In this document: piece after piece, positions 37,547-40,395 of the stretch
Layout of the letters: each line of letters begins with the position of its first letter
Numbering within the stretch: position 1 is the first letter of the stretch
Translations under genes and position numbers: made by a program
Notes under the pieces: generated by a model
Seen by the model: only the letters and a program-made list of their open reading frames with translations
Databases searched by the model: none
Told to the model about the DNA's origin: nothing
Source of the DNA: a virus
Length of the DNA stretch: 40,395 nt
IMG/VR virus record: IMGVR_UViG_3300033273_000131
Span: 1-40,395 of that record
Direction: 5' to 3' (one strand)

Positions 37547-38299
37547 TCAAATAATCCTTGACTTTTCGTGACCAACTCTGATACGAGGATCGCACCAGAT
37601 TTCAAAGCCTGCTTCCTTTGCATCCAAGCAGAAACTTACATCCTCTCCACACATGTCCTGAACCTCTCCAGACTCAAAGACTTGCATCTTAGGAGCAAAC
37701 CATGGATACTTCATCTCATTGTGTTCAAACACTCCGTGTTTGATAAGCAACCATCCGAAACCTGCATAGTCAACAGTGAATGGCTTCTTACGCTTCTGCA
37801 TCGTTTCAAGAGTCTCATGGTTCATGACACCACCATTACCACGGAAGTCTTCTTCATCCATCCAGTGTGCAACAGAAGTCGTCATACCATCTTCAGTACA
37901 ATACCAACCAGAAGCAATGTCCTGGTCCATTAAGACCAACTGAAGAAACTTCTCAGTATTAAACACAATGTCACTATCAATCCACAACTGATAGTCATAC
38001 TTCAACTTGCCGTCCCAGGGAATCTGGTCAGGTCCACGCAGGACGTTCGCTCCAAGACACTTGCATCTTGCAAAGTTTACCATGGAACTATAGTCCTGGG
38101 AGATCTGAATACTCCCTCCCATCTGCACAATATCAAAACAAAGTTGTACAAAGTTTTTCAAATATGTGTAAGATACACCTCTACCAGGCAAACAGAATAC
38201 GACAGACTTCCCACGGACCATCTCCCGTGCTTTGTCATAATCAAACTCCTGAGCAGCCGTGGTGGGTGCCTTCGCTTTAACAGTAAATCCTTTAGCCAT
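37547..38299 (-). CDS. Glycosyltransferase-like protein (GT-A fold)
   Basis: A 250-residue protein with features of a GT-A glycosyltransferase. A first strand VVFCLPGRGVSYTYLKNF (33-50) would be the nucleotide-sugar entry loop. The D-x-D metal motif is at 108-110 (LWIDSDIVF). GWYCTEDG lies at 131-138, FGWLLIKHGVF at 181-191, GEDVSFCLDAKEAGFEIW at 218-235 carries a likely catalytic E/D pair, and RVGHEK at 241-246 offers a metal-binding His. It could modify phage surface proteins or a host polysaccharide; the acceptor is unknown. The start at 38299 is about 17 bases below a strong sigma70-type promoter, unlike the late promoters of the neighbouring structural genes. No Shine-Dalgarno is evident. 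Confidence 0.8.
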   Translation of the reverse strand: MAKGFTVKAKAPTTAAQEFDYDKAREMVRGKSVVFCLPGRGVSYTYLKNFVQLCFDIVQMGGSIQISQDYSSMVNFARCKCLGANVLRGPDQIPWDGKLKYDYQLWIDSDIVFNTEKFLQLVLMDQDIASGWYCTEDGMTTSVAHWMDEEDFRGNGGVMNHETLETMQKRKKPFTVDYAGFGWLLIKHGVFEHNEMKYPWFAPKMQVFESGEVQDMCGEDVSFCLDAKEAGFEIWCDPRIRVGHEKSRII

Positions 38300-38372: not shown

Positions 38373-38546
38373 TCAGTCTGCGACCTCAGTAATTATGATA
38401 GCCTCTCCATCGACTTCCATATTTACTACGGTGCCCTCATACCACCCAAACTCACTCAATACCCACTCGGGAATATTAATATAATACTCCCCAGTTATTG
38501 GATCGACCTCTACAGTCGTAAAATTTTCTCCCGGATTTTTTAACAT
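38373..38546 (-). CDS. AbrB/MazE-like small DNA-binding protein
   Basis: ATG at 38546 opens 57 codons: MLKNPGENFTTVEVDPITGE, then YYINIPEWVLSEFGWYEGT and VVNMEVDGEAIIITEV. The layout of strand, I-P-x-x-(V/I)-L-x-x-x-G-W-x-x-G-(T/D)-x-V and a closing beta hairpin matches the swapped-hairpin AbrB/MazE fold used by small transcription factors and antitoxins. No toxin gene lies next to it, so a lone regulator is more likely. An AT-rich stretch (TATATAAA) some 30 bases upstream may be its -10. It ends 22 bases before the promoter region of the glycosyltransferase operon, which it could regulate; this is inference. Confidence 0.75.
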   Translation of the reverse strand: MLKNPGENFTTVEVDPITGEYYINIPEWVLSEFGWYEGTVVNMEVDGEAIIITEVAD

Positions 38547-38650
38547 CTAAGGTTTTTGTGATCGACTTTTAGTTTTATATAGAGCTCGTGAGCGTAACAC
38601 TTTATAGCTTATGGGGACCCAGAGCATTATAAACGCGCCCCGACGGCGAC

Positions 38651-38667
38651 GCCCCCACAAGGGGGGC
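38651..38667. other. GC hairpin after the 116-residue gene
   Basis: GCCCCC, loop ACAAG, GGGGGC, in the 150-base gap between the AbrB-like gene and the 116-residue gene. There is no T-run on either side, so it is at best a processing or rho-assisted end. A TATAAT (38631-38626, minus) follows but has no convincing -35. Confidence 0.4.
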
Positions 38668-38697
38668 ACTGCCGGAGCACGAACTCAGAGACTGGGG

Positions 38698-39048
38698 TCA
38701 GAGACCCATGAGGCGGTCGCGGGCAGCGGCGCGACGGTCGGCGGCGTACTGAGAGGCAGCACGGGCGGCGTTGGCGTCCTTATCACCCAACCACTGACGA
38801 CCAAGGGAGTTGACGGGGTTGAGCGTACCCATACGACCAGCACCAATGGCGATATCACCCTTGGCGACGTATGAACCCTTGGAGGTGTCGTGAGAACCCA
38901 GACCAGAACGACCGGAGGAGTTGGTCTTAGTCAGAGCAGAACGACGGCGACGGGTGGCGGCAGACTTGAGAACGGTCACCTTCACTTCTTTACCAGCGGC
39001 GTTGAGGTCGGCAGCGATGGCGGAGAGGTTGGAGATGGAAGCGGTCAT
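38698..39048 (-). CDS. Basic Ala-rich protein of unknown function (116 residues)
   Basis: A 116-residue protein: MTASISNLSAIAADLNAAGK, a basic patch SAATRRRRSAL (29-39), a Gly/Ser middle, then AARAASQYAADRRAAARDRL. It is Ala- and Arg-rich with two predicted helices at the ends, and no known domain is recognised. The start is at 39048, with a TTGACC/TATCTT promoter (17-base spacer) about 25-50 bases upstream and no Shine-Dalgarno. The first 15 residues resemble those of the 61-residue protein at 39714-39899 (NLSAI-AD). Codon use is GC-rich. The charge suggests nucleic-acid binding, but that is a guess. Confidence 0.7.
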   Translation of the reverse strand: MTASISNLSAIAADLNAAGKEVKVTVLKSAATRRRRSALTKTNSSGRSGLGSHDTSKGSYVAKGDIAIGAGRMGTLNPVNSLGRQWLGDKDANAARAASQYAADRRAAARDRLMGL

Positions 39049-39072
39049 GTGTCGGATGTCTTTGACTCTTAT

Positions 39073-39101
39073 AAGATACAGGAGTTTGGGGGTCAGGTCA
39101 A
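39073..39101 (-). promoter_or_regulatory. Sigma70-type promoter of the 116-residue gene
   Basis: Minus strand TTGACC (39101-39096), 17 bases, TATCTT (39078-39073). An overlapping TATAAG (39073-39068) is an alternative -10. The leader would be about 18 bases. Confidence 0.65.
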
Positions 39102-39106
39102 GCGTT

Positions 39107-39158
39107 TGAACCAGTCCCCCAACTGTCCCCAGTTCCCCAGCATCCAGGCGCTGGTTCA
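39107..39158. repeat. Nested inverted repeats between two GC-block genes
   Basis: Outer arms TGAACCAG (39107-39114) and CTGGTTCA (39151-39158) are perfect 8-base complements. Inside lies a second perfect hairpin, AACTG-TCCC-CAGTT (39121-39134). It lies between the DUF7249-like stop and the next promoter. With no T-run it is not a standard terminator. Confidence 0.6.
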
Positions 39159-39187
39159 GAAGCGCCCACCAGGGAAAGGCGATGAGG

Positions 39188-39415
39188 TCAGAGGTCGCCC
39201 ATCATGTCGTTGATCTCCAGTCCGTCGATCGCGGGGTCATCCCAGCGGCAACCGTCGGGGGTCTCTTTGCTGCCACACTCCCAGAGCATCGCCACCAGGT
39301 CCTGATAGGTGCGGCAGGTCTTAGCGGCATCGTAGAGGGACTCATCGTTCTGAATCCAGAGGGAAACGTTCCAGGTCTCCCAGTTTGCCCAACCGTTGAA
39401 AGTGGAAGCGGTCAT
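39188..39415 (-). CDS. DUF7249-like small protein
   Basis: A 75-residue protein with the core FNGWANWETWNVSLWIQNDE (residues 6-25), then SLYDAAKTCRTYQDLVAML and an acidic end (AIDGLEINDMMGDL). The N/W-x-E-T-W-N-V-x-L-W-I-x-N-(D/E)-E pattern is that of the small family I know as DUF7249, found in cyanobacteria and phages; its function is unknown. Start at 39415 with a TACAAT box 23 bases upstream and an A/C-rich leader without Shine-Dalgarno. The bases around its start (TGACCGCTTCCA) recur at the start of the 116-residue gene. Confidence 0.85.
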   Translation of the reverse strand: MTASTFNGWANWETWNVSLWIQNDESLYDAAKTCRTYQDLVAMLWECGSKETPDGCRWDDPAIDGLEINDMMGDL

Positions 39416-39438
39416 GTCGTTTCGTTTGAACTGTGTTT

Positions 39439-39444
39439 ATTGTA
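39439..39444 (-). promoter_or_regulatory. -10 box of the DUF7249-like gene
   Basis: Minus strand TACAAT (39444-39439), predicted start near 39432 and a leader of about 17 bases. No good -35 is visible, so an activator or weak promoter is possible. Confidence 0.5.
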
Positions 39445-39459
39445 AGGGGTCAGAGGGGG

Positions 39460-39672
39460 TCAGGATGCCAGGCAGTGACAGTTTACCCACTGTCCTTTGG
39501 AGGTGTCTCCACTGAACCAGAGCATCTTAAGGATGGCACGACGCGACACCCCAGTGTGGCGATACTCTACCAGGGGATTGCTGAACCAACGGACGCGGGC
39601 GGTTCCCGTGATGGGGTTGAGTCGCAGGGTCCAAACGCTGGTGGAGTCGTTGCAGTTGATGGGGTAACGCAT
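39460..39672 (-). CDS. Small protein, possibly KTSC-like
   Basis: A 70-residue protein: MRYPINCNDSTSVWTLRLNP, then GTARVRWFSNPLVEYRHTGV and SRRAILKMLWFSGDTSKGQW. The layout S-x-S-V, a beta strand ending in the (V/L)-x-(V/W)-x-F position, Y-x-(Y/H)-x-x-V, and a closing S-x-G-x-(Y/W)-x-N resembles KTSC domains, but the match is loose. It has its own TAGAAT box 21 bases before the ATG and no Shine-Dalgarno. GC-rich codon use like its neighbours. If not KTSC, it is an unknown small beta protein. Confidence 0.65.
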   Translation of the reverse strand: MRYPINCNDSTSVWTLRLNPITGTARVRWFSNPLVEYRHTGVSRRAILKMLWFSGDTSKGQWVNCHCLAS

Positions 39673-39693
39673 CGGTCGTTTGCTGTTGTGGTT

Positions 39694-39699
39694 ATTCTA
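39694..39699 (-). promoter_or_regulatory. -10 box of the KTSC-like gene
   Basis: Minus strand TAGAAT (39699-39694), with a leader of about 15 bases rich in A and C (ACAACAGCAAACGACCG). The same AAACGAC string precedes the DUF7249-like start. Confidence 0.5.
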
Positions 39700-39713
39700 C
39701 AGGGTCGCCCCAC

Positions 39714-39899
39714 TCAGTCGCGGTCGGAGATGTGCCAGCGTCCCCACTGTCCCTGTGGGCGGGTTGCCTCCCACTTAGCGAACCATTCTTGGGTGCCAGC
39801 GGCGGTAGCATTGCGGACCGCCTGCCGACGCTTTTCCTCAGCACGGACCTGGGCGGTGTAGTCTGCCATAATGGCGGAGAGGTTAGGTGTTTTGTTCAT
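39714..39899 (-). CDS. Small helical basic protein (61 residues)
   Basis: A 61-residue protein: MNKTPNLSAIMADYTAQVRA, then a charged helix (EEKRRQAVRNATAAG) and a Trp-rich end (EWFAKWEATRPQGQWGRW). No domain recognised. The residues NLSAIMAD match NLSAIAAD at the start of the 116-residue protein, suggesting a shared N-terminal element. A TATAAT box ends only 6 bases before the ATG at 39899, so the mRNA would be leaderless. A second ATG at 39869 would give a 30-base leader but lose the shared motif. Its stop is close to the next gene's -10 region. Confidence 0.65.
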   Translation of the reverse strand: MNKTPNLSAIMADYTAQVRAEEKRRQAVRNATAAGTQEWFAKWEATRPQGQWGRWHISDRD

Positions 39900-39905
39900 G
39901 TCCCT

Positions 39906-39911
39906 ATTATA
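39906..39911 (-). promoter_or_regulatory. -10 box adjacent to the start of the 61-residue gene
   Basis: A perfect TATAAT on the minus strand (39911-39906) followed by AGGGAC and then ATG. The predicted start coincides with the ATG. Further upstream, 39912-40088 has no gene; it holds a small CAGGG-TCG-CCCTG hairpin (40023-40035) and little else. Confidence 0.55.
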
Positions 39912-40088
39912 AGCACAGGGTCCGCCGCTTTGGGACAGATGGTGGACAGTTTGATTACTGGCACAAGGTGGGTTGTGAGGGGTCGCTGAGGTCCTATACT
40001 AAGGTCACAAGCGAAGGAGGGGCAGGGTCGCCCTGATGACGAAAAAGGTCGCCACGCCCCCTGCTTTCCGGTAATAATAAAAAAGTAT

Positions 40089-40113
40089 AAAAAAAGGGAG
40101 GTTATTTCCTCCC
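40089..40113 (-). terminator. Intrinsic terminator after the right-end gene
   Basis: Minus strand GGGAGG, loop AAATAA, CCTCCC, then seven T and a further T-rich stretch. It is a perfect 6-base stem located 6 bases after the stop codon, and it insulates the GC-rich block from the upstream gene. Confidence 0.92.
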
Positions 40114-40119
40114 ATTTCT

Positions 40120-40395
40120 TTATGCGAACATGAACCCATTTTGGAATTCAAACTGATTAAACACAGGGGAAGTTCCTGCCTGTCCGATGAACTTATGAAC
40201 GAACCAATTGAAGTTCTTTTGAAATACACATTCACCCGCAATTCCATGCTCAGAGAGAATAGCATTCAGGCGGGACTTGGTGGTCTTTGACTGATAACCA
40301 CCGTCGAAGATCTGAACGAAGTCATCACCAACTACGGCAATAGTGTTGCCGTGAAGACGAACAATAGACTCGTTAGTTTCGGGGTCGTAAGTAAC
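40120..40395 (-). CDS. Cyanophage-type hypothetical protein (5' end cut by window edge)
   Basis: The last 91 codons of a gene entering from the right edge. Visible sequence: VTYDPETNESIVRLHGNTIAV, VGDDFVQIFDGGYQSKTTKS, RLNAILSEHGIAGECVFQKN and a tail ending FEFQNGFMFA. I recall small proteins with the GN-IA-V-DD-(F/Y)-(V/I)-Q-(I/L)-(F/Y)-D-GG-(Y/W) and KTTKSRLNAIL pattern in many marine cyanophages, function unknown. The start is outside the window. AT-rich codon use contrasts with the block downstream. A strong terminator follows. Confidence 0.85.
   Translation of the reverse strand, partial: VTYDPETNESIVRLHGNTIAVVGDDFVQIFDGGYQSKTTKSRLNAILSEHGIAGECVFQKNFNWFVHKFIGQAGTSPVFNQFEFQNGFMFA

Follow-up and report, generated by a model that had tools for sequence, protein, structure and literature searches.

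A conserved GC-rich island of small genes in T4-like cyanophages carries promoter cassettes in which a dyad precedes the -10 box at a constant distance

A GC-rich block near the right-hand end of the window (the whole stretch of DNA analyzed, which covers an IMG/VR contig in full, 40,395 bp) is best explained as a native, conserved island whose dyad/-10 promoter cassettes are probably run jointly by a putative phage-encoded regulator. Judged by its relatives, the block is a lineage-conserved, hypervariable island of tiny genes, old rather than freshly imported. Each island gene is, as predicted from sequence, a stand-alone cassette comprising a dyad, a -10 box at 37 to 40 nt, a leader lacking a Shine-Dalgarno (SD) motif or no leader at all, and a short ORF. 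By the matches found, this cassette module recurs family-wide, in GC-rich islands and in AT-rich regions, upstream of unrelated gene families. The control of early and middle transcription in T4-like cyanophages, which lack MotA, AsiA, and Alt, has been called unclear (PMC2984593). A family-wide dyad at a fixed spacing from the -10 box defines a class of promoter that can be tested directly. It also predicts which small uncharacterized genes are co-regulated and implies a putative DNA-binding regulator.

The source of the window is identified by homology as a T4-like cyanophage (Kyanoviridae): its gp96 matches the Kyanoviridae model, and every relative of the block region found at the DNA level is a cyanophage. 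An initial annotation of this DNA had noted that the block contrasts in GC with both flanks and had proposed a windowed profile. Run across the whole contig, the sliding profile bears this out, with 59.1% GC at positions 38611-40075 compared with 40.9% in the contig to the left and 41.6% to the right; none of the remaining 1,465-bp windows exceeds 47.0% GC (mean 40.7, sd 1.9). Two-state GC segmentation placed the limits of the island at 38634-40071, with 59.5% GC in a 41% GC contig. The block is located between gp96 and the gp25-side genes. Its upstream border gene is the partial gp96 (40120-40395, minus strand; Kyano_Gp96, PHROG 554), the first gene beyond the island encodes a small MazE/AbrB-like protein (38373-38546, minus strand; PHROG 661), and the downstream border gene encodes a weakly glycosyltransferase-like PHROG 1574 protein (37547-38299, minus strand).

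Four consecutive small genes on the minus strand fill the block, as originally described, with 61, 70, 75, and 116 codons (genes 4 to 1). Gene 4 (39899-39714) is predicted to be leaderless and encodes a PHROG 14769/10986-like protein of 61 aa, gene 3 (39672-39460) a 70-aa protein of PHROG 7365, gene 2 (39415-39188) a 75-aa DUF7249 protein of PHROG 871, and gene 1 (39048-38698) a 116-aa protein with a conserved N terminus, MTxSxxNLxAIAADLNAAGKEVKV, and a variable basic tail. Gene 2 was assigned to DUF7249 (Pfam PF23907) by a score of 78.1 bits, where the cut-off is 27; its AlphaFold2 model is a four-helix structure with a pLDDT of 92.5, for which a structure search returned no PDB match. The gene 1 model is poor (pLDDT 54). 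PADLOC detected nothing. Elsewhere in the family, one island gene family (L123:421-645 and relatives) bears a weak similarity to the toxin HicA, with a Pfam E value of 0.0014 that falls short of the cut-off. Two otherwise unrelated small-gene families have a WxISDR[D/H] C-terminal tail in common.

One -10 box close to each ATG had been proposed, and all four were recovered on the minus strand, 6 to 24 nt before the ATG: TATAAT of gene 4 (39906-39911), TAGAAT of gene 3 (39694-39699), TACAAT of gene 2 (39439-39444), and TATCTT of gene 1 (39073-39078). The gap is 6 nt for gene 4 and 21 to 24 nt for genes 1 to 3. A clear -35 is present only at gene 1 and none is conserved in relatives; an alignment of 124-125 promoters gives no peak of information at that position. 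Two features had been overlooked: each -10 box is preceded by a dyad element, and there is a fifth promoter, located on the plus strand (-10 TATACT, 39995-40000).

The resulting composite promoter contains a 22-bp dyad, GTGMCASTT-N4-AASTGKCAC, with its 3' half-site starting 37 to 40 nt before the -10 box, the offset being counted from the ACTG of that half-site. Minus-strand dyads are found for gene 1 at 39108-39129 (offset 37), for gene 2 at 39475-39496 (offset 38), and for gene 3 at 39732-39753 (offset 40), the last of these inside the final part of the gene 4 coding sequence. A single dyad at 39943-39964 is common to two divergent promoters, that of gene 4 on the minus strand (offset 39) and that of a predicted small RNA on the plus strand (offset 38). 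The window's own dyads have 3 to 4 mismatches to the consensus. The block contains five dyad/-10 pairs (four genes plus the divergent promoter), compared with none in 300 dinucleotide shuffles; the window outside the block contains none. The codons for the C-terminal WHISDRD of gene 4 hold a half-site of the next promoter's dyad.

The spacing is maintained across the phage family. Among 89 dyads from 16 isolate loci, a TANNNT hexamer occurs at offset 38 in 36 cases, at 37 in 16, at 40 in 12, and at 39 in 11; an average offset has 3.5. In a set of 895 orientations, picked regardless of the presence of a -10 box, offset 38 accounts for 176 and offset 39 for 116, the median per offset being 6; IMG/VR contigs are redundant, and these counts were made after non-redundancy filters that leave residual relatedness. 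When all loci are taken together, the distance from dyad to -10 box shows a further, lesser peak at 43-44 nt. In complete genomes, 17 dyad/-10 pairs were counted in S-PM2d (0.3 in shuffled sequence) and 8 in S-RSM4 (0.7 in shuffled sequence). Dyads are present in 16 of 16 isolate genomes, most far above the reversed-pattern control; Syn19, S-CAM8, and S-H25 have few, not clearly above that control. The dyad is not specific to the island, since in S-PM2d it also precedes cobS, a helicase annotated as T4-GC 36, which we take to be Dda-like, and small uncharacterized genes. By these positions, dyad promoters are densely clustered in the island but also occur in AT-rich regions. Within the literature searched, no description of the dyad promoter was found, and an earlier description outside that scope is possible. 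On the minus strand of S-RSM4, at 14.8-25.8 kb (L208-L209) and away from the island, there is a dense run of matches to the half-site (ACTGKYMM).

Downstream of the -10 boxes, genes 1 to 3 have A/C-rich leaders without an SD motif (39049-39072, 39416-39438, and 39673-39693, minus strand), and the form of the gene 2 leader, CAGTTCAAACGAAACGAC, is repeated in relatives. The lack of a ribosome site, already noted for this block, extends to island genes as a group: SD-like 4-mers precede only 5% of 260 non-redundant island starts, whereas among the large ORFs of S-PM2d and S-RSM4 the share is 28-30%. The promoter alignment consisted of 260 non-redundant upstream regions from 40 families, with gene starts in relatives being predictions and some families, notably that of gene 1, poorly start-called. 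In this alignment the -10 box stands either 27-33 nt ahead of the ATG or, in a leaderless class, 12 nt ahead of it, and both positions are well above internal ATGs. The type A consensus comprises a C-rich stretch, TGACCC, TATAAT, then CTCAGTTCAAACGAACC and the ATG, and near-identical promoter modules are found in one island upstream of unrelated genes. An earlier promoter-leader regular expression was too loose, giving genome-wide hits at about the shuffled number, and was replaced by the dyad.

Two corrections of existing annotation follow from this promoter module. The TATAATG formed by a -10 box and a following G gives a false start codon, with ORFs starting MTSVQTK or MTEVQ, as at L018:1421, L031:2363, L037:7356, L176:2002, and similar positions, and island genes are likely misannotated because the -10 supplies such starts. 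In addition, a predicted Pho box, CCTATACT GAT CTCAGTTC, has been listed for S-PM2d250 (PMC10976474, Table 2); this published site (L194:7239, upstream) is the -10 box plus leader of an island promoter module.

We propose that the -10 box would be recognized by the host's RNA polymerase carrying its principal sigma factor, and that a putative dimeric, phage-encoded DNA-binding protein would occupy the dyad (roughly -65 to -44) and so regulate all dyad promoters together. A phage-encoded dimer would be the simplest reader of the dyad, and an activator role is favored because no -35 is conserved. That the reader is the neighboring MazE/AbrB-like protein is only a guess. The island genes may act early and modify the host: a host-directed role is suggested by their position and by analogy with early T4 genes, and the early timing by genome position, by the one dyad-preceded helicase, and by the general understanding that early transcription in cyanophages depends on the sigma-70 of the host (PMC2984593). 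The repeated modules also suggest that recurring cassette ends could allow gene swapping by recombination.

It is rather unlikely that a host transcription factor binds the dyad and that the phage has hijacked an existing cyanobacterial regulon. Genes active at the start of infection need factors that are already present, and dyads with at most one mismatch are in excess across 291 cyanobacterial genomes (27 versus 2 in the control). However, all 27 are in larger genomes, and none was found in the sampled genomes of up to 2.6 Mb, the size range of most marine picocyanobacteria. The same result tells against the original view of the block as host-like, as its promoters carry the phage-family dyad. 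Exact dyads occur in 31 stretches from 84,980 GTDB genomes, none in a record titled Synechococcus, Prochlorococcus, or Cyanobium, and a -10 box at the proper spacing accompanies just 3 of the 62 orientations. Some larger cyanobacterial genomes (L218, L219, L229, L241, L242, and L246) have exact dyads, above control, without the -10 spacing.

Also unlikely is a role of the dyad as a transcribed stem-loop that terminates the upstream gene, which would turn the unit into a cassette of the PeSL type, a terminator followed by an early promoter. The dyad does sit where upstream genes end, and PeSLs of T4-type phages are cited in PMC4503421. In addition, 40% of type A promoters, versus 8% of shuffles, have a separate GC-rich hairpin (stem of at least 6) in the interval from dyad to -10. 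Against this, the rigid spacing between dyad and -10 is superfluous for a terminator, one dyad serves two divergent promoters, and the consensus has no T-run following the dyad. Furthermore, in 550 non-redundant sites the pairing agreement between half-sites equals the expectation for independent halves and mutual information is near zero, and sites of Prochlorococcus phages retain a conserved mismatch, GTGACAGTT-N4-TAGTGTCAC. Because the half-sites vary independently and conserved mismatches are kept, the dyad looks like a protein operator and not an RNA hairpin.

With the dyad read as an operator, the island promoters can be compared with systems already described. In T4-type phages, PeSL regulatory cassettes were reportedly described by Arbiol in 2010 and Comeau in 2014. 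These cassettes are small, carry a promoter, separate short genes of hyperplastic regions, frequently include a GC-rich hairpin, and are plausible sites of gene shuffling, all of which resembles the island, where about 60 families of small proteins form a variable gene pool. The island promoters differ in having the 22-bp dyad at fixed spacing and a -10 box without a conserved -35, in lacking support for a stem-loop role of the dyad, in their location in a GC-rich island, and in the reuse of an SD-less A/C-rich leader together with the promoter. The separate GC-rich hairpin is enriched, in fewer than half of promoters. PeSLs have been discussed for S-PM2, with a low density reported in its neighboring ORFanage (PMC4503421). 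The island promoters are similar to T4 middle promoters in that a -10 box without a -35 is accompanied by a phage element upstream instead. The MotA box of T4 lies at about -30, whereas the conserved island element is a dyad about 38 nt upstream of the -10 box, which would span roughly -65 to -44. Cyanomyoviruses lack motA and asiA (PMC2984593).

The SAS/ESAS sequences of cluster K mycobacteriophages likewise recur in front of numerous unrelated genes, and in about half of the cases a 17-bp inverted repeat is present (PMC3203893). SAS itself is an asymmetric 13-bp sequence, GGGATAGGAGCCC, directly at the start codon (PMC3203893), unlike the island combination of dyad, fixed-spacing -10, and SD-less leader; the aligned island upstream regions show the C-rich stretch, -10, and A/C leader, not GGGATAGGAGCCC. 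Variable blocks of small genes are known from the same phage family, in the S-PM2 ORFanage and the g15-g18 hyperplastic region (PMC4503421, PMC2984593), but the island locus differs from both, and S-PM2d has lost the ORFanage and keeps the island.

To examine the locus in relatives, contigs were gathered with two anchors, gp96 at the right border and the PHROG 1574 protein at the left. A GC-high segment of at least 600 bp lies between the anchors in 43 of 63 related two-anchor contigs, with a mean GC of 58%. From the GC drop of the island to the PHROG 1574 gene, the median distance in these 43 contigs is 365 bp (IQR 343-401), compared with 334 bp in the window. Six isolates, S-PM2d, S-WAM2, S-H9-1, S-RIM32, S-RSM4, and Sf-CH1b, have a GC-rich island at the same locus, and in S-PM2d it is the sole region above 50% GC in 1-kb windows. 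The island is lineage-specific, because among the isolate loci compared it is absent from Syn19, S-SSM5, Bellamy, QB2, P-RSM4, and P-TIM40, and Syn1 shows a weaker GC rise, to about 50%. Tracking of host GC was rejected as its cause, as Syn19, S-SSM5, Bellamy, and QB2 infect Synechococcus yet lack the island. Gene content is variable, with genes 1 to 4 present in 14, 30, 11, and 9 of the 43 islands, respectively. The GC-high state would be something kept up within the lineage and not newly imported.

The initial annotation's own idea, that the block is recently captured host or foreign DNA, is very improbable. Its 59% GC is similar to that of marine Synechococcus hosts and several other cyanophages lack the island, but the same locus, edge, and GC jump recur in six isolates and in diverged contigs numbering in the tens, and the promoters are phage-type throughout. 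The gene families are present in cyanophages and scarcely in sampled cyanobacteria: a profile search without a positive control gave no match to the gene 1 family in 117 cyanobacterial genomes, DUF7249 matched in 1 of the 117, and no host source of the island was found among the cyanobacterial genomes sampled. The same block with the same GC in relatives had been named in advance as the mark of a native region, and this is what the relatives show. The conserved island refutes a recent origin; an ancient foreign origin of single genes is possible. An assembly chimera, for which the abrupt shift of composition at both edges might speak, is not needed and is very improbable, because an independent contig (L010) runs through the left border at 88% identity, and at the right border the convergent small RNA is paired with gp96, 112-119 nt from its end, in 49 of 71 loci.

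On the right side of the native island, the terminator reported earlier is present as a GGGAGG/CCUCCC hairpin (40096-40113) with T-runs on both strands, part of a bidirectional terminator (40085-40120) common to gp96 on the minus strand and the predicted small RNA on the plus strand. The divergent plus-strand promoter (-10 at 39995) faces this gp96 terminator and would produce the small RNA (40007-40118), which has a core, CGAAGGAGG, at 40012-40020 and a hairpin, GGGGC-RGGGUM-GCCCU. The sequence is conserved in 100 IMG/VR loci, 35 of them non-redundant. A blastn search found no match in isolate phages, and a covariance-model search assigned no Rfam family, the sole hit being by chance and on another stretch. 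The core is SD-like and was already conserved in relatives collected before the core-based search, although its invariance is partly built in by the design of that search. One compensatory pair in 2 of 20 sequences gives modest support to the 5-bp hairpin.

The small RNA might act as a decoy for the 30S subunit, its AAGGAGG, up to AAGGAGGUG, pairing with the 16S anti-Shine-Dalgarno while the SD-less, co-regulated island genes escape; we regard this as a speculative and improbable idea. If true, the island would be a coupled takeover unit, with a divergent dyad promoter making the small RNA. In any case, SD-less leaders next to a divergent small RNA raise the question of translational control in abundant aquatic viruses. 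Other readings of the plus-strand RNA were rejected. A hammerhead ribozyme (CUGAUGA...GAAA) has no stem II and no Rfam match, and a coding role is contradicted by an ATG that is not conserved and by a stop in another frame in a relative, leaving no conserved frame. An outer helix has several mismatches among the 35 sequences, and the inner hairpin alone is retained.
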